From the NCBI GenBank assembly GCA_018607725.1, contig JABBAY010000220.1:1-43116 (forward strand): DNA of 43,116 nt, given 5' to 3'. The translations under genes were made by a program, and so were the position numbers. Positions 9,877-19,514 of this stretch are shown one piece after another; position 1 is the stretch's first letter, and the number at the start of each line of letters is the position of its first letter. The stretch is from K189A clade bacterium (GTDB lineage Bacteria; Pseudomonadota; Gammaproteobacteria; Pseudomonadales; Azotimanducaceae). The notes under the pieces were generated by a model. It searched no databases, had not been told where the DNA came from, and saw only the letters and a program-made list of their open reading frames with translations.

Positions 9877-11157
9877 GTGGATCAAACCTTAGAACTTCAA
9901 TACGCGTTAGATACGTTTTATTTCCTTGTCTGTGGCGCGCTCGTCATGTGGATGGCGGCCGGCTTTGCGATGCTTGAGGCGGGTCTGGTCCGGTCGAAAA
10001 ATACAGCGGAGATCTTGACGAAAAACGTCGCGCTATTTGCGATCTCCTGCATCATGTACCTCGTGTGTGGTTATGCCGTCATGTACGGCGGCGGATTTAT
10101 GCTGGCAGGCATTGAGCTTGATGGCGCCGCCAGCGCTGAAGTCCTGACCGAGACAGTCCTGGCTGAGTCTCGCGAAGCTGGTTTTGCCGGCGGCTCGGTC
10201 TATTCCAATGCGTCAGACTTCTTTTTCCAGGTTGTCTTTGTAGCGACTGCCATGTCGATCGTGTCGGGTGCGGTAGCAGAAAGAATGAAACTCTGGGCGT
10301 TTCTCGGATTTGCCGTAGTCATGACGGGTCTGATTTATCCACTGGAAGGCTCATGGACGTGGGGCGGCAGTTCCGTATTTGGCTTGTACACACTGGGTGA
10401 CTTGGGTTTCTCTGACTTTGCTGGATCGGGCATCGTCCACATGGCGGGTGCGGCAGCGGCCTTAGCCGGTGTTCTGGTACTGGGCGCGCGTAAGGGTAAA
10501 TACGGTAAAGACGGACAGGTGAACGCTATCCCCGGGGCTAACTTACCGCTGGCGACTTTAGGCACCTTTATTCTGTGGATGGGCTGGTTTGGTTTTAATG
10601 GTGGCTCAGTGCTTAAGCTGGGTGATATCGCCAGTGCCAACTCAGTCGCTATGGTGTTTCTGAATACTAACGCTGCGGCAGCGGGCGGGGCGATGGCTGC
10701 GCTGATTACCGCCAGATTTTTGTTTGGTAAAGCCGACCTCACCATGTTGCTCAACGGGGCGCTAGCGGGATTGGTCGCGATTACAGCGGAACCTTCGACA
10801 CCTACTGCGCTGCAGGCAACCCTGTTTGGTGGCCTCGGTGGCGTGTTAGTCGTATTTTCCATCATCGGGCTGGACAAGTTAAAAATCGATGACCCCGTCG
10901 GCGCCATCTCTGTTCACGGTACTTGTGGGTTGTTAGGTCTGCTGCTGGTACCCCTGACGAACGATGGTGCGCTCTTAAGTGGTCAATTGATTGGTGCCGC
11001 GACCATCTTCGCTTGGGTGTTTGCCATGAGTCTTGTGGTTTGGTTAATTCTTAAAGTGACTGTGGGTATTCGAGTCAGCGAAGAAGAAGAATACCAGGGT
11101 GTGGATATCGGTGAGTGTGGTGTCGAGGCCTATCCCGAGTTCGTTACCAACAGGTAG
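9877..11157 (+). CDS. amtB: Ammonium transporter AmtB
   Basis: The 426-residue protein has about eleven membrane helices in the Amt/Mep/Rh order. FAMLEAGLVRSKN is in helix 1, the phenylalanine-gate region and DFAGSGIVHMAGAAAA hold the first pore His, and AISVHGTCGLLG holds the second pore His. It conducts ammonium/ammonia across the inner membrane under nitrogen limitation. The GTG start is supported by TGGAGGGG ending 6 nt upstream. Regulation is shown by the sigma-54 promoter at 9811 and the terminator at 11183. The usual partner glnK is not adjacent: the region before is the TRAP operon and the gene after is a convergent GNAT. There is no cleaved signal peptide. Confidence 0.94.
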   Translation: MDQTLELQYALDTFYFLVCGALVMWMAAGFAMLEAGLVRSKNTAEILTKNVALFAISCIMYLVCGYAVMYGGGFMLAGIELDGAASAEVLTETVLAESREAGFAGGSVYSNASDFFFQVVFVATAMSIVSGAVAERMKLWAFLGFAVVMTGLIYPLEGSWTWGGSSVFGLYTLGDLGFSDFAGSGIVHMAGAAAALAGVLVLGARKGKYGKDGQVNAIPGANLPLATLGTFILWMGWFGFNGGSVLKLGDIASANSVAMVFLNTNAAAAGGAMAALITARFLFGKADLTMLLNGALAGLVAITAEPSTPTALQATLFGGLGGVLVVFSIIGLDKLKIDDPVGAISVHGTCGLLGLLLVPLTNDGALLSGQLIGAATIFAWVFAMSLVVWLILKVTVGIRVSEEEEYQGVDIGECGVEAYPEFVTNR

Positions 11158-11182
11158 ATATTGTTATAATCAGTCCCCTTCG

Positions 11183-11210
11183 GCGCTCTGTTTTCAGAGC
11201 GCTTTTTTTT
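11183..11210 (+). terminator. Intrinsic terminator of amtB
   Basis: GCGCTCTG (11183-11190) and CAGAGCGC (11195-11202) form a perfect 8-bp stem with a TTTT loop, followed by eight T residues (11203-11210). It sits 26 bp after the amtB stop and separates it from the convergent GNAT gene. Confidence 0.92.
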
Positions 11211-11285: not shown

Positions 11286-11828
11286 CTACTTGTTGGCGCC
11301 ATTCCAGGGTTGAATTGGTGCGTCGGGCAAGTCATCAATGACGGTTTCTTCGTGAAATACCTCGAAGCCGCGAGCGAGATAATTATTGAGTGCTTGTGGA
11401 TGATCCAGAGAGCAGGTGTGCAGCCAGACTCTGCGACCGCCCAAACGCCAGGCATGGGCAATAGCATCTTCCAGCAGGGCCTTGCCAAAACCTTGGCCGA
11501 TGAAATCGGTGATCAAACCAAAATACGCGATTTCAACGCAGTCATCGGCTTGTCGTTCGAGCTCGAAATAGCCCACGGGCGTACCCTCGTCATAGGCGAC
11601 CCACGTCTCTACGCCAGGTCGTTTGAGGCTGGCGAGCCATTGGTCATAAGTCCAGGTAAGGCGCATATACCACTGCCAGGATGCGCCCACAGCGACATAA
11701 AGGAACCGATTGAATTCGGGTAAGGGTCGGTTAAGCTTTTTTAAGGAATAGGGTCTGCTGGTTGGGATGGTAGGAATGCGCGCTGCATCCTTAATCTCTA
11801 CGTGCCAGACTTTGATTGATTGTTTCAT
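11286..11828 (-). CDS. GNAT-family N-acetyltransferase
   Basis: With the start at 11828 (MKQSIKVWHVEIKD, preceded by GAGAG) the protein has about 180 residues. The GNAT core is visible: VAYDEGTPVGYFELE strand, VEIAYFGL strand, and the acetyl-CoA loop IGQGFGKALLEDA, followed by ALNNYLARGFEVF. It transfers an acetyl group from acetyl-CoA to an amine on an unknown substrate. The longer reading from 11924 would add 32 residues overlapping the upstream SDR gene and lacks a ribosome site. It is the last gene of the 11-gene minus-strand run. Confidence 0.8.
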   Translation of the reverse strand: MKQSIKVWHVEIKDAARIPTIPTSRPYSLKKLNRPLPEFNRFLYVAVGASWQWYMRLTWTYDQWLASLKRPGVETWVAYDEGTPVGYFELERQADDCVEIAYFGLITDFIGQGFGKALLEDAIAHAWRLGGRRVWLHTCSLDHPQALNNYLARGFEVFHEETVIDDLPDAPIQPWNGANK

Positions 11829-11886: not shown

Positions 11887-12570
11887 TCAAGTATTCGTCG
11901 CCCAGCCACCGGCAAAGGGCACAACTTGGCCTACCATAAAATCACTGTTGTTCGACGCTAAAAACAGCGCGAGTTCAGCAGACTCCTCAGCTTTGGCGAT
12001 TCGACGAATAGGTACGTTGCGTTTCAGATGATTCTGAAAGCGCTCGGAGGCGACTAGTTCATCGGGGTAGTATTCTGGATTACTCACGTAGTTTTGAGCG
12101 ATGGCATTGATCTGCACGTTGGCCGCCGCAAACTCTAGGCCAGTGGCACGGATAAAGGCATTCTGTGCACCCCGTGCGGCACAATAGGCTGCCGACCCAG
12201 GCAAGCCTCGAAGTGGTGCGGCGCTGGTAATGGCGACGATTTTGCCGTGACCGCGCTCAGCCATCAGTGGTGCGAAATGTCTAATCAGGCGCATCAAAGG
12301 ATGCACCATGGTGTCGAACATGCCCTCCCAGTCGGCGTCTTGTATATCAGCAGTTGGACTGTTGCATGGAGCGTGGGCGAGATTGGCCACCAGGATATCG
12401 ATATCGGCGTTTTGGCTGACATATCCGGCAAATGCGTCAGCGGCGGGCACGCTGCCGGGTCGAGCATCGATCAAAGCACCTTCATGGGCAAATAGCTGGG
12501 CGATCGCCGGACCCATATAGTCACCACATTGAGTGATCAACACGCGCTTATTTTTGAGTCGATCCGACAT
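11887..12570 (-). CDS. Halohydrin dehalogenase-like SDR protein
   Basis: The 227-residue protein belongs to the short-chain dehydrogenase fold but lacks both SDR essentials. The Gly-rich nucleotide motif is replaced by T13-x4-Y18-x-G20, and the catalytic YxxxK is replaced by Tyr129-x3-Arg133, with Ser116 twelve residues before the Tyr. T-x4-F/Y-x-G plus S-x12-Y-x3-R is the published fingerprint of halohydrin dehalogenases, which convert vicinal haloalcohols to epoxides and can open epoxides with nucleophiles. NPEYYP (residues 167-172) resembles the HheC halide-loop FYP region. The length is slightly short of HheC. An epoxide hydrolase lies in the same gene run. I am confident of the fold and motifs; activity is inferred. 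Confidence 0.82.
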   Translation of the reverse strand: MSDRLKNKRVLITQCGDYMGPAIAQLFAHEGALIDARPGSVPAADAFAGYVSQNADIDILVANLAHAPCNSPTADIQDADWEGMFDTMVHPLMRLIRHFAPLMAERGHGKIVAITSAAPLRGLPGSAAYCAARGAQNAFIRATGLEFAAANVQINAIAQNYVSNPEYYPDELVASERFQNHLKRNVPIRRIAKAEESAELALFLASNNSDFMVGQVVPFAGGWATNT

Positions 12571-12595: not shown

Positions 12596-12982
12596 TCAGT
12601 TGACAGTGACCGCATGGGCCTTGAGCAGTTCGATGGGCACGATGTCCAGTGCCTTGAGATGAGTGTTACGCAAGAATACTCTTGGTGCCATGCCTTTGCT
12701 CTGCGCCTGTAGCCAGCGGCTGGCGCATAAACACCAGCGATCACCGGGTCTTAATCCGGAAAAGCCCGCCTCAGGGTGGGGCGTCGAAAGATCGTTGCCG
12801 GCAAATCGAGAGTACTGCAGAAACTCTTCTGTGACTTCTACGCAGACCGTGTGTGATCCATGATCTTCGGCGCAGGTATTACAGCTGCCGTCGCGAAAAA
12901 ACCCGGTGACTGGATCATTGCTGCAGGGTTCCAGTGGTTCGCCGAAGACATTCGTGGGAGGCTCTAGTTCGAATCCAGCCAT
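12596..12982 (-). CDS. DUF2237 family protein
   Basis: The 128-residue protein matches what I know of DUF2237: NVFGEPLEPCS, TGFFRDGSCNT, EDHGSHTVC and GLRPGDRWCLCASRW. Family proteins are small and Cys-rich and have no established function. Five or more cysteines and several conserved Asp/Gly residues suggest metal binding or redox chemistry, but this is inference. It lies between the cupin gene and the halohydrin dehalogenase-like gene with short gaps, so it is probably co-transcribed with them. There is no signal peptide. Confidence 0.85.
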   Translation of the reverse strand: MAGFELEPPTNVFGEPLEPCSNDPVTGFFRDGSCNTCAEDHGSHTVCVEVTEEFLQYSRFAGNDLSTPHPEAGFSGLRPGDRWCLCASRWLQAQSKGMAPRVFLRNTHLKALDIVPIELLKAHAVTVN

Positions 12983-13003: not shown

Positions 13004-13489
13004 TTATTGGGGTACGTCGTGTATGTCGTCCCATTCGGTATATTGCTTCTTGCCGTCAACCCTGAGCATACGCCGCTTAATTCTCGGGTAGTCACAGATA
13101 TCGATCTTATTCCGCTCACCACTCATCAGATAAACCAGATCCTCAGCGTAGGGATTAGACAAATTATGGGCCAGTGAATCCACCGTAAAGCCCATGAAAT
13201 CCCCAGGGCCTACCTCATGGCGGCTGTCACCAATTTCAGCAATGCCACGACCGGAGAGGATATAAAGAAACTCTTCGTCGCAATGGTGGGTGTGGAACTG
13301 GGTTGAGTCATGACCCGGCTCAAGCCTGACCAGGTGCACGCCGATATGGCTCAGGCCGACCAGGTCGCCAAGTGAACGCGTATGGCGCACGGCATTAGGA
13401 TTAAATTGATGGGTATTAACGGTCTCGTCGAGGCCGCTAATGTCCTGTGCGGATAACAGCGGGTGCGGCGGTTTAGTGCCCACGCCCAC
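13004..13489 (-). CDS. Cupin-domain protein
   Basis: The 161-residue protein has a single cupin barrel. The first motif is FHTHHCDEEFLYILSGRG, with His ligands and a Glu. The second is GDFMGFTVDSLAHNLSN, with the third His. Such sites bind one metal ion and occur in dioxygenases, isomerases and sensory domains; the substrate is not deducible. The GTG start lies inside the 3' end of rhlB (17-bp overlap), with AAAGGA upstream. The stop is 21 bp before the DUF2237 gene. Tight packing suggests translational coupling with rhlB. Confidence 0.8.
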   Translation of the reverse strand: MGVGTKPPHPLLSAQDISGLDETVNTHQFNPNAVRHTRSLGDLVGLSHIGVHLVRLEPGHDSTQFHTHHCDEEFLYILSGRGIAEIGDSRHEVGPGDFMGFTVDSLAHNLSNPYAEDLVYLMSGERNKIDICDYPRIKRRMLRVDGKKQYTEWDDIHDVPQ

Positions 13490-14843
13490 GGTTTCCTTTG
13501 TTATTAGGTCTGGCTGGTACCATTGGCGGTTTTTCGCGTCCCTTGCGTACAGGCGCAGGGAGCGCTTTCAATAGGGCCTCAGGCGGTTGCTCGCAGCGGA
13601 ATGCCTCGCCAAGCAAGGTCTCGATAGCGGGCAGCATAAACGATTCATCTTCACAGGCGAGGCTGACGGAGGTGCCCATTGCGCCGGCTCGACCGGTTCT
13701 GCCGATGCGGTGAACATAATCTTCCGGGTCTTCGGGTAGGTTGTAATTGATCACATGGGACACACCGTCGACGTGGATACCGCGGCCCGCCACGTCGGTG
13801 GCCACCAGGACTTTAATTTCACCGGATTTGAATTGTTCGAGGGTGCGAATGCGCTTGGTTTGTACGACTTCACCGCTGAGCAGGCCTGAGTCGATGCCGT
13901 GCCGATACAGCCGGCTTTCCAGGGAACGAGTCTCGTCCCGACGATTGGCGAAAATAATGACCCGATCAACGGTGTCTAGTTGCAGCAGGTTATACAGGAC
14001 TGCGAATTTTTGGTCTGCACTTGCCAGGTAGACTAACTGTTCGACGGAGTCGACAGCGACCTGATCAGGTTCCACTTCGATGCGCACAGGATCTAGCGTC
14101 CAGCTTGCGGCCAGACGTTTGATGTCGTCACTAAAGGTTGCGCTGAACAACTGGGTCTGACGCTTTTGCTTAGCGGGTGTCTTGCTGATAATCGATTTCA
14201 CGTCTGGAATAAATCCCATGCTCAACATTCTATCAGCTTCATCAATGACCAGTGTTTCGACCCTGGATAAATTAATGACGCCGGTGCGACAAAAGTCCAG
14301 CAGGCGTCCCGGTGTTGCGATAATAATATCGATGGGGCCTTTGAGCTGGTTCTTCTGTTTCTCATAATCCATGCCACCAACTACGGATAAAACTGAGAGA
14401 TCAGTGAACAATGAAAGGCCGACCGCGTCCTCGGCGATCTGCATAACCAGTTCACGGGTCGGGGCGATAATAAGTGCAAAAGGTGTGCCCGCCGGCCGAG
14501 GATCGTACTCTGGATGTTCGAGATGATAAGTGATCACGGAAATCAAAAATGCGGCGGTCTTACCGGTACCGGTTTGGGCCTGAGCGATAATATCTCGCCC
14601 ATCCAGTGAGTAGGGCAGCACCTCTTTTTGAATGGCAGTGGAGGTGGTAAAACCCAATTTGTCGATCGCCAGGTAGAGCTCGTTCGGAAGGTCAAGCTCA
14701 AGAAAGTCGTTAACCTGGGGTTCTACGGCAGCCGCGTCGGCCAGCGCTGGATTCAGTTGATCGACAGGGTCGGTGGTTGCCGCCACAGTGGCAGGCTCTA
14801 CTGGCAGTTGATCAGTATCAGGTGACTCGTTGAGAAGCTTCAT
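13473..14843 (-). CDS. rhlB: DEAD-box ATP-dependent RNA helicase RhlB
   Basis: The 456-residue protein has all DEAD-box motifs: AQTGTGKT (Walker A), PTRELVMQIA (Ia), TPGRLLDF (Ib), VIDEADRML (II), LFSATF (III), then the second RecA domain with IIFANRRDE, ATDVAGRGIHV (V) and HRIGRTGRAG (VI). The Q motif lies in LPNELYLAIDKLGFTTSTAIQ. RhlB remodels RNA with the RNase E degradosome. A 50-residue acidic N-terminal extension rich in Asp, Pro and Ala, and a basic Arg/Gly tail, suggest RNA or partner contacts. The 3' end overlaps the cupin gene. RhlE or another DEAD-box type is an alternative. Confidence 0.9.
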   Translation of the reverse strand: MKLLNESPDTDQLPVEPATVAATTDPVDQLNPALADAAAVEPQVNDFLELDLPNELYLAIDKLGFTTSTAIQKEVLPYSLDGRDIIAQAQTGTGKTAAFLISVITYHLEHPEYDPRPAGTPFALIIAPTRELVMQIAEDAVGLSLFTDLSVLSVVGGMDYEKQKNQLKGPIDIIIATPGRLLDFCRTGVINLSRVETLVIDEADRMLSMGFIPDVKSIISKTPAKQKRQTQLFSATFSDDIKRLAASWTLDPVRIEVEPDQVAVDSVEQLVYLASADQKFAVLYNLLQLDTVDRVIIFANRRDETRSLESRLYRHGIDSGLLSGEVVQTKRIRTLEQFKSGEIKVLVATDVAGRGIHVDGVSHVINYNLPEDPEDYVHRIGRTGRAGAMGTSVSLACEDESFMLPAIETLLGEAFRCEQPPEALLKALPAPVRKGREKPPMVPARPNNKGNRGRGH

Positions 14844-14850
14844 CGTGTGG

Positions 14851-16134
14851 TTAGTCGCTCAAAAATTGGTTGACGGTCGCGAGTTGTAGACAAACTACGA
14901 ACACCTCAAGTGCGCGCTGCAGAGAATCCATAGCCGGAAACGTGGGTGCGAGCCGAATATTGCTGTTTTGTGGATCTAACCCATAGGGAAAGGTCGCGCC
15001 CGCTGGAGTTAGCTTAACACCAATTGCGGCAGCGTGTTGAATCACCTCAGAAGCCAGTCCGGGTAGGGTGTCCAGGGAAATAAAGTAGCCGCCCCGTGGC
15101 TCACTCCAGCTCGCTATGCCCTTGCCTTTGAGGTGTTCAGACAGGATTCGCAGGGTCAAATCAAACTTGGGTTGAATAATATTACGATGTTTGACCATAT
15201 GTGCAGCGATATGTTCAGCGTCTTTGAGGAAACGCACATGTCGTAGCTGGTTGACCTTATCGAAGCCAATCACTGAAGCTGACAGGTATTTCTCGAAAGC
15301 CTTGAGATTATTCGGTTCGGCCGCCAAAAATGCGATGCCAGCGCCGGCGAAGGTGATTTTGGAGGTTGAGCCAAACATTACGACACTACGTTCGTTACCC
15401 TGGCGTTTGGCCTCGGCCATCAGGTTCTTCAATACGTCAGGATTATCACTGAGATGGTGTACCGCATAGGCGTTATCCCAGAATATGGTGAAATGCTCGC
15501 CAGCGATATCCGCCAATCGGGCCATGCGGTCGACGACTGCGTCATTGTAGGTGTGACCGGTGGGGTTGGAATATTTTGGGACGCACCAGATACCTTTGAT
15601 TAAGGGATCCTGTTGGATCAGCGCCTCGACCTGACCCATGTCAGGACCGCCATCAAGCAACGGTACGTTGAGCATCTCGATGCCAAAGTGTTCGCAAATC
15701 GTAAAATGTCGATCGTAGCCAGGCACGGGACAGATAAACTTAATTTTGGCATCCGGGTTGGCTACCAAAGCTTGACGCCAGACAGGGAGCATATGATCGA
15801 TGTAAGCGTACATCAGCGACAGGCTGCTGTTACCGCCGACCAAGACCTCATCGGTGTCGACTTCGAGAAAGGTGGCGGCCAACTGCCTGGCTTCTGGTAT
15901 GCCCAGGATGCCACCGTAATTTCTGACATCCGTACCGTCTTGCAGCAGGTAGAAACCCTCGAGGATACCATCGAGTTCGTTAGATAAATCCAGCTGAGCC
16001 GGCGCCGGCTTACCTCGGGTCAAATCGAGGTTAAGGTTGGCCTGCCGAAAACCTTCATATTGCGCGCTGAGGGAGATCTGTAAAGTCCGCAATTGTTCGC
16101 GGGATAGTTGTGCAAATTCCATTGAATACTCCAA
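14851..16134 (-). CDS. PLP-dependent class I/II aminotransferase (MocR-like Asp aminotransferase family)
   Basis: The 427-residue enzyme has the class I fold. LTRGKPAPAQLDLS near the N-terminus, NYGGILGIPEARQLAA, GGNSSLSLMYAY, VPKYSNPTGHTYND and FWDNAYAVHHL (Asp/Tyr contacting PLP) are visible, as is the lysine segment VMFGSTSKITFAGAGIAF. The last Lys of STSK forms the Schiff base. RLAPTFP contains the C-terminal Arg that binds a dicarboxylate. It matches the PF12897-type aspartate aminotransferases rather than AspC. It sits 7 bp upstream of rhlB and next to argC, so arginine or aspartate nitrogen metabolism is a plausible context, though unproven. Confidence 0.87.
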   Translation of the reverse strand: MEYSMEFAQLSREQLRTLQISLSAQYEGFRQANLNLDLTRGKPAPAQLDLSNELDGILEGFYLLQDGTDVRNYGGILGIPEARQLAATFLEVDTDEVLVGGNSSLSLMYAYIDHMLPVWRQALVANPDAKIKFICPVPGYDRHFTICEHFGIEMLNVPLLDGGPDMGQVEALIQQDPLIKGIWCVPKYSNPTGHTYNDAVVDRMARLADIAGEHFTIFWDNAYAVHHLSDNPDVLKNLMAEAKRQGNERSVVMFGSTSKITFAGAGIAFLAAEPNNLKAFEKYLSASVIGFDKVNQLRHVRFLKDAEHIAAHMVKHRNIIQPKFDLTLRILSEHLKGKGIASWSEPRGGYFISLDTLPGLASEVIQHAAAIGVKLTPAGATFPYGLDPQNSNIRLAPTFPAMDSLQRALEVFVVCLQLATVNQFLSD

Positions 16135-16147
16135 TTGGAACGGATAG

Positions 16148-17101
16148 TTAGACCGTAAGACCGGTCAATTCGTGTTTGCCTAACATCAAGTTGAGATTTT
16201 GTACGGCGGCACCTGCTGCGCCCTTGCCTAAATTATCGAGACAGGAAGTCAGGAGAATTTGTTCGTCATTGCCGAACACAAACAAGTCATTGCGATTAGT
16301 GCCATTATTGCTTTGTGGCTCAAGAAACCCGTCGTCCAGTGCATTATTATCGTTAATGTCGTGAAGCCGAACACAAGGTTCGCCGGCGTAAGCTTCGGCT
16401 AACAGACTGTGAACCGCTTGAAGATTCACGTCGGCGGTGAACCAGCTTTTGGGCAACGGAACGTTGACTAGCATGCCTTGCGGAAAATGGGCAACAGACG
16501 GCATAAACATGGGCTGCAGTGCTAGGCCCGCATAGTGCTGCATCTCGTTCAGATGTTTGTGTGTCAAGCCGAGGCCATAAGGCCGCGTGTACCAAAGGTG
16601 TTCGGGCTGCTGTTGAGCGCGCTCGGCGTATTTCTCAATCATATTTCTGCCACCGCCGCTGTAGCCAGATACACCGTGGCAAATCAACGGAATGTCGGCA
16701 CGCAGCAGGCCGCTGCGGATCAGTGGTGTCACCGCCAGCAGGAATCCCGTAGCCCAACATCCTGGGTTGGAAATGAAGTGTCCCTGACGGATTTTTTCTC
16801 TTTGCTGGGGTGTGAGCTCGGCCAGGCCATAGGTCCAATCTGGCGCGACCCGATGGGCTGTGCTGGCGTCTAAAACGCGAGTATTTGGGTTTTCAATGAG
16901 AGCGACAGTCTCTCTCGCAGCATTATCTGGCAAGCATAGAATAACCACATCGGCGCTGTTGATCAGTTGCTGCTTGATTAAAGGGTTCTTTCGATCTTCA
17001 GCGGAAATTTGCAGCAGTTCAATATCGGTACGCTGACTCAATCTTTCGTGAATTTGTAGGCCGGTTGTGCCGACTTGGCCATCGATAAATACTGTATTCA
17101 T
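16148..17101 (-). CDS. argC: N-acetyl-gamma-glutamyl-phosphate reductase, short type
   Basis: The 317-residue enzyme reduces N-acetyl-glutamyl phosphate to the semialdehyde in arginine synthesis. Visible features are the N-terminal nucleotide fold FIDGQVGTTGLQIHERL, the active-site Cys115 in ISNPGCWATG, SGYSGGGRNMIE, and the histidine in SVAHFPQGM. The short length and GTTGLQ motif correspond to the type 2 ArgC. The ATG overlaps the epoxide hydrolase stop by 4 bp (ATGA), showing translational coupling. Other arginine genes are absent from the window, so the position is unusual. Confidence 0.92.
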   Translation of the reverse strand: MNTVFIDGQVGTTGLQIHERLSQRTDIELLQISAEDRKNPLIKQQLINSADVVILCLPDNAARETVALIENPNTRVLDASTAHRVAPDWTYGLAELTPQQREKIRQGHFISNPGCWATGFLLAVTPLIRSGLLRADIPLICHGVSGYSGGGRNMIEKYAERAQQQPEHLWYTRPYGLGLTHKHLNEMQHYAGLALQPMFMPSVAHFPQGMLVNVPLPKSWFTADVNLQAVHSLLAEAYAGEPCVRLHDINDNNALDDGFLEPQSNNGTNRNDLFVFGNDEQILLTSCLDNLGKGAAGAAVQNLNLMLGKHELTGLTV

Positions 17102-18270
17102 GAGCGAGCTTTATTCTCTAATAGTCTGATTTTTTGGAAAAACGTTCGTATGTCCGCGGCCAACAATTCTGGCTGCTCCAAGGCGGCAAAATGGCCGCCT
17201 GCGGGTTGCTCTGTCCAGTGCTGAATATTGTAGAGTTCCTCAGCCCAACTTCTCGGTGGTTGATAAAGTTCTGCTGGGAACATGGTGCAGCCTGTAGGCG
17301 TCGCAATTCTACCATGTTCGAATAGATTGTTGCCTACATGATTTGATTCGTAATATAGCCGGGTGGAAGACGTAATGGTGCCAGTGACCCAGTAGAGCAT
17401 GATGTTGGTGAGCAATTCGTCACGGCTCACGCTATTCTCCAGCTGGCCATGACAATCGGTCCAGAAATAGAATTTTTCGCTGATCCAGGCGGCCAGTCCA
17501 CTGGGCGAATCGTGCAAGCCGTAGCCAAGTGTCTGAGGTCTGGAACCCTGAATCGCCTGGTAACCTGTGCCGTCTGTCATCAGCTTCTGACGCTCGCTGA
17601 GTACACGCCGTTCTCGGTCTGTGACACCGGCAAATGGATCAGGCAAATGTTTCGGGTAGCCGGCAAAAACCAGGGTCAAGTGAATGCCGCAAACCTGTTT
17701 AGGGGCCAACACGGCAGTCCAACTGCTGATTGCTGAACCCCAGTCACCGCCTTGGGCGCCATACCGCTCATAGCCGAGTTCAGCCATCAGTCGCACGTGT
17801 CCTTCGGCGACACATTTCTGGTCAAACCCGGGTCTGGTGGGAGCTGTAGAAAAGCCGTAACCCGGGATAGAAGGGCAGACCACATGAAAGGCGTCAGCAG
17901 CGGTTCCACCAAACTTTTCAGGATGGGTCAACATCGGCAAAATACGACTGAATTCAACAATCGAACCTGGCCAACCGTGGGTCATGATCAACGGTAAGGC
18001 TTCGGCGTGGGGCGAGCGAGCATGAATAAAGTGGAGAGATTGGTCATCAAACTCTGCCGTAAAGTGCTCGAATTGATTCAGCTTCGCCTCTTGTTGCCGC
18101 CAATCATATTGTTCCAACCAATATTGGCACAGAGACTGTAACCATTGGCGGTCTGTACCGTACTGCCAATCCTGGCCAATCTCATCGGGCCAGCGAGTAT
18201 TGCGCAGACGCTGGTGCAAGTCATCGATGACGGCAGCGTCAATGTTGATTTTGAAGGGTGAAATTTTCAT
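17098..18270 (-). CDS. Epoxide hydrolase with N-terminal EHN domain
   Basis: The 390-residue enzyme has an EHN domain over about residues 1-110 (FKINIDAAVIDDLHQRLRNTRWPDE), then an alpha/beta-hydrolase domain. HGWPGS at 98-103 carries the oxyanion hole, and GGDWGS has Asp176 as nucleophile. An acidic residue and His360 (GGHFAALEQPE) complete the triad. YYESN near 310 supplies a lid tyrosine of the kind that activates the epoxide. This arrangement is that of microsomal-type epoxide hydrolases, which convert epoxides to vicinal diols. It is co-translated with argC (ATGA overlap) and with the upstream glycosyltransferase-like gene. Together with the halohydrin dehalogenase-like gene downstream it suggests detoxification or use of epoxides. 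Confidence 0.88.
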   Translation of the reverse strand: MKISPFKINIDAAVIDDLHQRLRNTRWPDEIGQDWQYGTDRQWLQSLCQYWLEQYDWRQQEAKLNQFEHFTAEFDDQSLHFIHARSPHAEALPLIMTHGWPGSIVEFSRILPMLTHPEKFGGTAADAFHVVCPSIPGYGFSTAPTRPGFDQKCVAEGHVRLMAELGYERYGAQGGDWGSAISSWTAVLAPKQVCGIHLTLVFAGYPKHLPDPFAGVTDRERRVLSERQKLMTDGTGYQAIQGSRPQTLGYGLHDSPSGLAAWISEKFYFWTDCHGQLENSVSRDELLTNIMLYWVTGTITSSTRLYYESNHVGNNLFEHGRIATPTGCTMFPAELYQPPRSWAEELYNIQHWTEQPAGGHFAALEQPELLAADIRTFFQKIRLLENKARS

Positions 18271-19514
18271 GAGACCGAGTCCGTTGGTTCAGTGAGCAGT
18301 CGATGCAGCCATCTTACAGAATCAATGTCGCGGATGTGTGCTTTGGGTAACACTGTGCCATCGCAAATGTGGTTGAGATTTTTTGATGGGAAGTAGTTAT
18401 CGCGCATAAAGTGAATGAATTTCAGCGTTTGAAAACCATCGAACCAGTCTCGCAGGAAGCGTTGGAAAACTCGATTAGGTGACTGCCGTTGCTGAGTCAA
18501 TAGACCGCGCAGATGCGAGTGGTTCAGCCAATTGAGAATCTCCGGCGTGTGTCCAAAGCAAGGCTCTGGATCCTGATTGTGGAGTTGGTCTGCTGAGGCC
18601 AGAAAGATTCGTAGCATGTAGAACACGCGTGGATCATAGAATTCATAATCGGTCATCGGCGCTGTCAGAGACTTAATAGTCTGCAGCGCAGGGCCTGTTC
18701 CGAATGGCGCTCGATCCGACAGTCTGGCCTGAATGCTAATGGCAGCCCCAGGGCTAATTTCGATCTGACCGGTCTTGGCCAGCTTGTTCAGGATATAGAA
18801 GTCTTCGGCTGCGTTGCGCTTTGGAAAACCGCGAACTTGCGCGTAGTGCTTGGCATTGATACGTAGTGTGCTGCCAATCGTAGGAAATGCGTAGGCGCTG
18901 CCGGCGTAATGCAAGCCGCGCACGTAGTAATTCATCGCGATGTCATACAAACGCGAGGCTAGCTCCAGTTCGGCGTCAAAATGATGGCGGAAGGGCTGCA
19001 GAATAGCCGCCGTTGTTATATCAAGTGGCGGTATATCGAAATAATTGTTCGGTAATACCACGTCGGCATCAGTGCTGTTGATCAAAGGTGAGTCGATAGC
19101 CCCTTTGCAAATTAATGCCAATGCCAGATCGGCGCCGATCTTGCGGGCCAGCCCCACCCCTTGGCGTTGGGGTATCAGTCGCCCCGCATGACATCGATCA
19201 ACAACGATCAGGTCTGGGCTGTCAGACCGGCGAATATAATGTAAATGACCAGCCTGTTGACTTGGCCCGGTAGTCAAGTTGCGAAACATCTGCTGGCTCA
19301 CAGAGTCTTCTTCAGTCCCGCTATTGACGACCAAGATCATCAGTAATTTGGGATCTGAGTGCGGCCATATCCGCAGTACCGACTCAGACTCTTCGCGGTG
19401 CGCGGGTATGACTAGGCAGTGTGCGTAACCGCTGATATCAAGATCGTCAAGGTCGCTGATCTCACTTTCAGCGTACCTCTCAAGGTATTGATGCGCGGTT
19501 TTTTCAAGAGACAT
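18267..19514 (-). CDS. Glycosyltransferase family 2-like (GT-A) protein
   Basis: The 415-residue protein begins with a GT-A-like nucleotide-binding fold: CLVIPAHREESESVLRI, MILVVNSGTEED. It has a DxD-type site INSTDADVVLPNNYF and an acceptor-side ED in RNAAEDFYILNKLAK. These match inverting GT2-type glycosyltransferases. No clear membrane helix is visible, so it is likely cytoplasmic or peripherally bound. The C-terminal 130 residues are unassigned. Its stop overlaps the epoxide hydrolase start by 4 bp. Carbohydrate targets are unknown; no other polysaccharide gene is nearby, so a small-molecule or glycolipid acceptor, or sugar-nucleotide binding without transfer, remain possible. Confidence 0.6.
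   Translation of the reverse strand: MSLEKTAHQYLERYAESEISDLDDLDISGYAHCLVIPAHREESESVLRIWPHSDPKLLMILVVNSGTEEDSVSQQMFRNLTTGPSQQAGHLHYIRRSDSPDLIVVDRCHAGRLIPQRQGVGLARKIGADLALALICKGAIDSPLINSTDADVVLPNNYFDIPPLDITTAAILQPFRHHFDAELELASRLYDIAMNYYVRGLHYAGSAYAFPTIGSTLRINAKHYAQVRGFPKRNAAEDFYILNKLAKTGQIEISPGAAISIQARLSDRAPFGTGPALQTIKSLTAPMTDYEFYDPRVFYMLRIFLASADQLHNQDPEPCFGHTPEILNWLNHSHLRGLLTQQRQSPNRVFQRFLRDWFDGFQTLKFIHFMRDNYFPSKNLNHICDGTVLPKAHIRDIDSVRWLHRLLTEPTDSVS

Follow-up and report, generated by a model that had tools for sequence, protein, structure and literature searches.

Halohydrin dehalogenases (HHDHs) follow a chemistry that is established for HheC, in which a Tyr/Arg pair carries out the deprotonation, a Ser holds the oxygen, and the halide is released into the former NAD(P) site. 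The first of them came from bacteria in enrichments with haloalcohols and epihalohydrins, and their natural role has been assumed (PMC4989007). HHDHs are called rare, with only 5 of the 43 known in 2014 coming from gammaproteobacteria (PMC6922532), and at the time of a 2016 review just two HHDH genes were known to share an operon with an epoxide hydrolase (PMC4989007). The fingerprint separating HHDHs from SDRs combines T-x4-F/Y-x-G with S-x12-Y-x3-R (PMC4989007; PMC11976700), and 19 enzymes chosen by the same motifs proved active in earlier work (PMC4989007).

The closest described relatives of the protein considered here, which is encoded in a stretch of 43,116 nucleotides (the window), are the D-type enzymes HheD2 (PDB 7b73; PMC9629495) and HheD8 (8xxb, described as such in the structure search entry) and the B-type enzyme HheB (4zd6). 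With the two D-type enzymes it has the fold and the Ser/Tyr/Arg triad in common, at 41% identity; their motif 1 reads TQADxFMG versus TQCGDYMG in the window protein, and their NPT-YFP loop aligns with its NPE-YYP, but the window protein falls outside their D clade. HheB shares the fold, a Tyr in motif 1 and a short halide loop (42% identity), but its place in the tree is with the proteins L079, L082 and L087, away from the window clade. HheC of Agrobacterium radiobacter AD1 (1pwx) shares the SDR fold and both fingerprints, although it is only 26% identical, has a longer halide loop and belongs to a distant clade. From the sequence and a structural model we predict, with high confidence, that the product of the window gene is an SDR-fold enzyme that works as a halohydrin dehalogenase without a cofactor, and this predicted identity holds by every computational test applied.

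The gene and its motifs

The ORF starts with an ATG at 12570 and reads down to 11887, and GGAG is found about 10 bases 5' of this ATG. The features, with motif positions reckoned from the ORF start at 12570, are as follows:

11887..12570, minus strand: HHDH-like SDR, 227 aa, based on ORF, motifs, alignment, model, tree and structure search; one copy in the genome
12511..12534, minus strand: motif 1, T13-QCGD-Y18-M-G20 (TQCGDYMG, residues 13-20), replacing the Gly-rich NAD(P) loop
12172..12225, minus strand: motif 2, S116-x12-Y129-x3-R133, the predicted catalytic triad

An earlier note on this DNA had read the protein as an SDR that lost its cofactor site, and this reading stands: the Gly-rich NAD loop is absent, T13-x4-Y18-x-G20 occupies its place in agreement with the published T-x4-[FY]-x-G, and the published S-x12-Y-x3-R is present as S116-x12-Y129-x3-R133, with Arg where SDRs have Lys. 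The likeness of NPEYYP to the halide loop of HheC was also seen correctly, as YYP aligns with FYP of HheC and with YFP of HheA2 and HheD2. None of the 30 other SDRs examined in the same genome carries both motifs together, so the match exceeds what chance would give.

In the alignment of 54 relatives, S116, Y129 and R133 are invariant, while T13, Y18 and G20 are conserved in at least 90%. The exceptions in motif 1 are L051 and L062, with S for T, and L028, with D for the last G; the latter is a natural HHDH relative (L028:2656-3333) whose motif 1 is TQDNDFMD, the conserved last glycine being replaced by aspartate. Between the window gene and its two nearest relatives, dN is 0.02 versus a dS of 0.29-0.45, which indicates purifying selection.

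Predicted structure, relatives and HHDH type

The top sequence matches in the PDB were HheD2 (7b73), HheD8 (8xxb) and HheB (4zd6), with E values from 1e-47 to 1e-51, far above any SDR. Identity over aligned residues equals 41-42% for these three, 26% for HheC, and 25% for both HheA2 and FabG, meaning that even the nearest characterised HHDHs found are only about 41-42% identical to the window protein. The AlphaFold2 model, built on the 54-row alignment, reached a mean pLDDT of 90.4 and a pTM of 0.90. When it was compared with the PDB by Foldseek, the nine best matches were all HHDHs (chains of HheD2, HheB and HheD8, E approx. 1e-23 to 1e-24), and the best NAD-dependent SDR came behind them with E of approx. 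1e-18. Structure prediction was one of the two computational checks proposed in the earlier note, and the other, a phylogeny, gave the same answer.

The maximum-likelihood tree contained 73 rows, with HHDH references of types A, B, C and D plus SDRs. All HHDHs, the window protein with HheA, HheB, HheC and HheD among them, fall on one side and the plain SDRs on the other (support 100/99). Confidence in this deepest split is lower than in the grouping with the B- and D-types, because HheA, HheC and the SDRs have long branches. The B and D clades are joined at 99/99, and beside them, inside neither, stands the window clade with 17 rows (100/100), surrounded by further groups from Halieaceae, Pseudohongiella, Burkholderiales and Chloroflexota. 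Membership in type D is ruled out, as the clade of HheD2 and HheD8 (12 rows, 100/99) excludes the window protein, and so is membership in type B, as the HheB clade (97/93) excludes it as well. L079, L082 and L087, with which HheB groups, are proteins of the window's own bacterial family.

The window protein thus belongs to a known protein family, in a clade apart from the B and D types of solved structure. This clade may correspond to the published E-type or to a sister of it. E-type HHDHs come partly from marine gammaproteobacteria.

Inheritance and surrounding genes

The rarity of HHDHs, on which the earlier note had laid weight, does not apply to this lineage, because one is present in 130 of the 207 genomes of the window's family, always as a single copy and never as two. 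In a sample taken across the order the gene was found in 37/392 genomes, and an ordinary SDR from the window's genome, used as a control, in only 19/207 family genomes (strict threshold). Judging by match scores and the tree, a given genus of the family seems to have either the window-type HHDH or another type, some of these other types being near HheB. In pairwise comparisons, the HHDH and the neighbouring genes have diverged in step (r 0.83-0.93), and together with a dN far below dS this sequence evidence supports vertical descent of the gene.

The gene belongs to a same-strand string running from 20816 to 11286, in the order esterase, MiaE-like protein, 415-aa protein, epoxide hydrolase, ArgC, aspartate aminotransferase, RhlB-like helicase, cupin, DUF2237 protein, HHDH and GNAT. 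Gaps within the string are at most 58 bases and several genes overlap; we infer that it forms one transcript. The relevant features are:

17098..18270, minus strand: EHN-type epoxide hydrolase, 390 aa (Pfam PF06441), overlapping each neighbouring ORF by 4 bases
16148..17101, minus strand: ArgC, N-acetyl-gamma-glutamyl-phosphate reductase (TIGR01851, above cut-off)
14851..16134, minus strand: aspartate aminotransferase type Ic (NF053594, above cut-off)
13473..14843, minus strand: RhlB-like DEAD-box RNA helicase (profile match)
13004..13489, minus strand: cupin-domain protein (domain search)
12596..12982, minus strand: DUF2237 protein, a conserved neighbour 25 bases upstream of the HHDH
11286..11828, minus strand: GNAT acetyltransferase, last of the string; internal ATG at 11828, the listed ORF extending to 11924
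11182..11203, no strand assigned: inverted repeat with a T tail, terminator-like by pattern match only, in the gap that separates the ammonium transporter from the last gene of the HHDH string

Promoter-like matches in the window sequence were no more frequent than expected by chance. The placement of the gene in a housekeeping cluster had been called unusual, yet the same surroundings recur: portions of the gene order are found in 23/23 loci (L009-L031), in which HHDH identity to the window protein is 66-96%.

Two other genes of the window deserve mention. The 415-aa protein (18267-19514) has no Pfam or NCBIfam match and looks glycosyltransferase-like by eye; it is kept in the clade and evolves fast (mean identity 43%). 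The ammonium transporter (9877-11157) matches the 'marine subtype' model TIGR03644 above cut-off.

Epoxide hydrolase linkage and a proposed natural role

The epoxide hydrolase at 17098-18270 has its nearest matches of solved structure among bacterial and microsomal enzymes of this kind (PDB 5f4z/4i19), and its motifs HGWP (98-101), GGDWG (174-178) and GGHF are intact, as are the catalytic motifs of the hydrolases linked to HHDHs. When HHDH positions were compared across the family with the listed positions of EHN-type hydrolases, a hydrolase was found within 20 kb of the HHDH in at least 19 genomes (a lower bound), on the same strand in all of them, versus approx. 1.4 expected by chance. The Poisson values at the genome level are overstated, because the genomes are related; counted by genus, linkage within 20 kb occurs in at least 6 genera versus at most 1.4 expected (P approx. 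0.003), so kinship weakens the linkage but leaves it standing. Among the 19 family matches of the control SDR, none shares a contig with a listed epoxide hydrolase (a small control, judged by eye). The linkage might also reflect a clustering common among catabolic genes in general.

In at least 6 of these genomes the hydrolase match starts 68-153 bp downstream of the HHDH match. In L169, L170, L171 and L172, from two genera, the two genes are directly adjacent on the same strand, with 68-153 bp between matches. Such adjacent pairs belong to sister HHDH lineages nearer HheB (genera g11 and g166) and have the hydrolase downstream, whereas in the window clade it is upstream of the HHDH, five genes away, and the linkage is looser; there are therefore at least two separate arrangements. 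The slot before ArgC is occupied by the hydrolase in genomes of four genera, and is empty in L011-L031 where readable. Possession of the hydrolase at this site is therefore no general trait of the window clade but limited to some genera.

By analogy with HheC and HheB, Y129, with its pKa lowered by R133, would remove the proton from the hydroxyl of a vicinal haloalcohol while S116 holds the substrate oxygen. The oxygen would then displace the halide to give an epoxide, and the halide would exit into the pocket that ordinary SDRs use for NAD(P), which motif 1 is predicted to line. Most likely the epoxide would be passed to the epoxide hydrolase and turned into a diol, so that the pair could detoxify or use natural haloalcohols. 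Catalysis, the direction of the reaction, the substrate and the partnership with the hydrolase are all predictions, the chemistry being deduced from membership in the HHDH family. The linkage favours a natural role in which halohydrins are turned into epoxides and these into diols, and we consider the chances that this is correct to be even. Bromo- and chlorohydrins of marine origin could plausibly be the natural substrates, though this is a guess. Slightly less assured is the broader proposal that in this marine gammaproteobacterial family one vertically inherited HHDH per genome, often linked to a hydrolase, could form a core pathway for natural halohydrins and not one for the degradation of pollutants.

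The strongest alternative retains HHDH-type chemistry but with another natural reaction, in which a small anion opens a metabolic epoxide or a leaving group other than halide is released. A vertically inherited single-copy chromosomal gene is unlike pollutant catabolism, the range of nucleophiles that HHDHs accept is wide (PMC11976700), and the 2016 review leaves room for other physiological functions (PMC4989007); however, linkage to a hydrolase suits the formation of an epoxide better than its consumption by the HHDH, and we regard this alternative as unlikely. It is far less probable that the protein is a non-catalytic one of SDR fold with a structural or regulatory role, as the loss of the cofactor loop might suggest, since Ser, Tyr and Arg are invariant in the 54 sequences and purifying selection acts on the gene. 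An ordinary NAD(P)-dependent SDR with motifs matched by chance is rejected, and given next to no probability, on motifs (no Gly-rich loop, Arg for Lys), tree and structure, where the neighbours are HHDHs, even though Pfam and NCBIfam assign the protein to the SDR superfamily only, all matches to curated NCBIfam SDR models being far below cut-off.

Kept family-wide as one copy per genome, and linked again and again to a hydrolase on the same strand, the predicted HHDH bears on the unsettled natural role of these enzymes and offers one that can be tested. HHDHs are valued biocatalysts, and the family offers many diverse enzymes for screening.

Other settings were also observed. In L038, L039, L048, L049 and L064, a related group of HHDHs lies beside a DsbA-like protein, CoA-transferase III, MaoC hydratase, acyl-CoA dehydrogenase and thiolase, possibly an acyl-CoA catabolic setting unlike that of the window. 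In L153 and L154 the HHDH adjoins a PQQ beta-propeller dehydrogenase and is also next to a divergent pyruvate dehydrogenase E1 gene.
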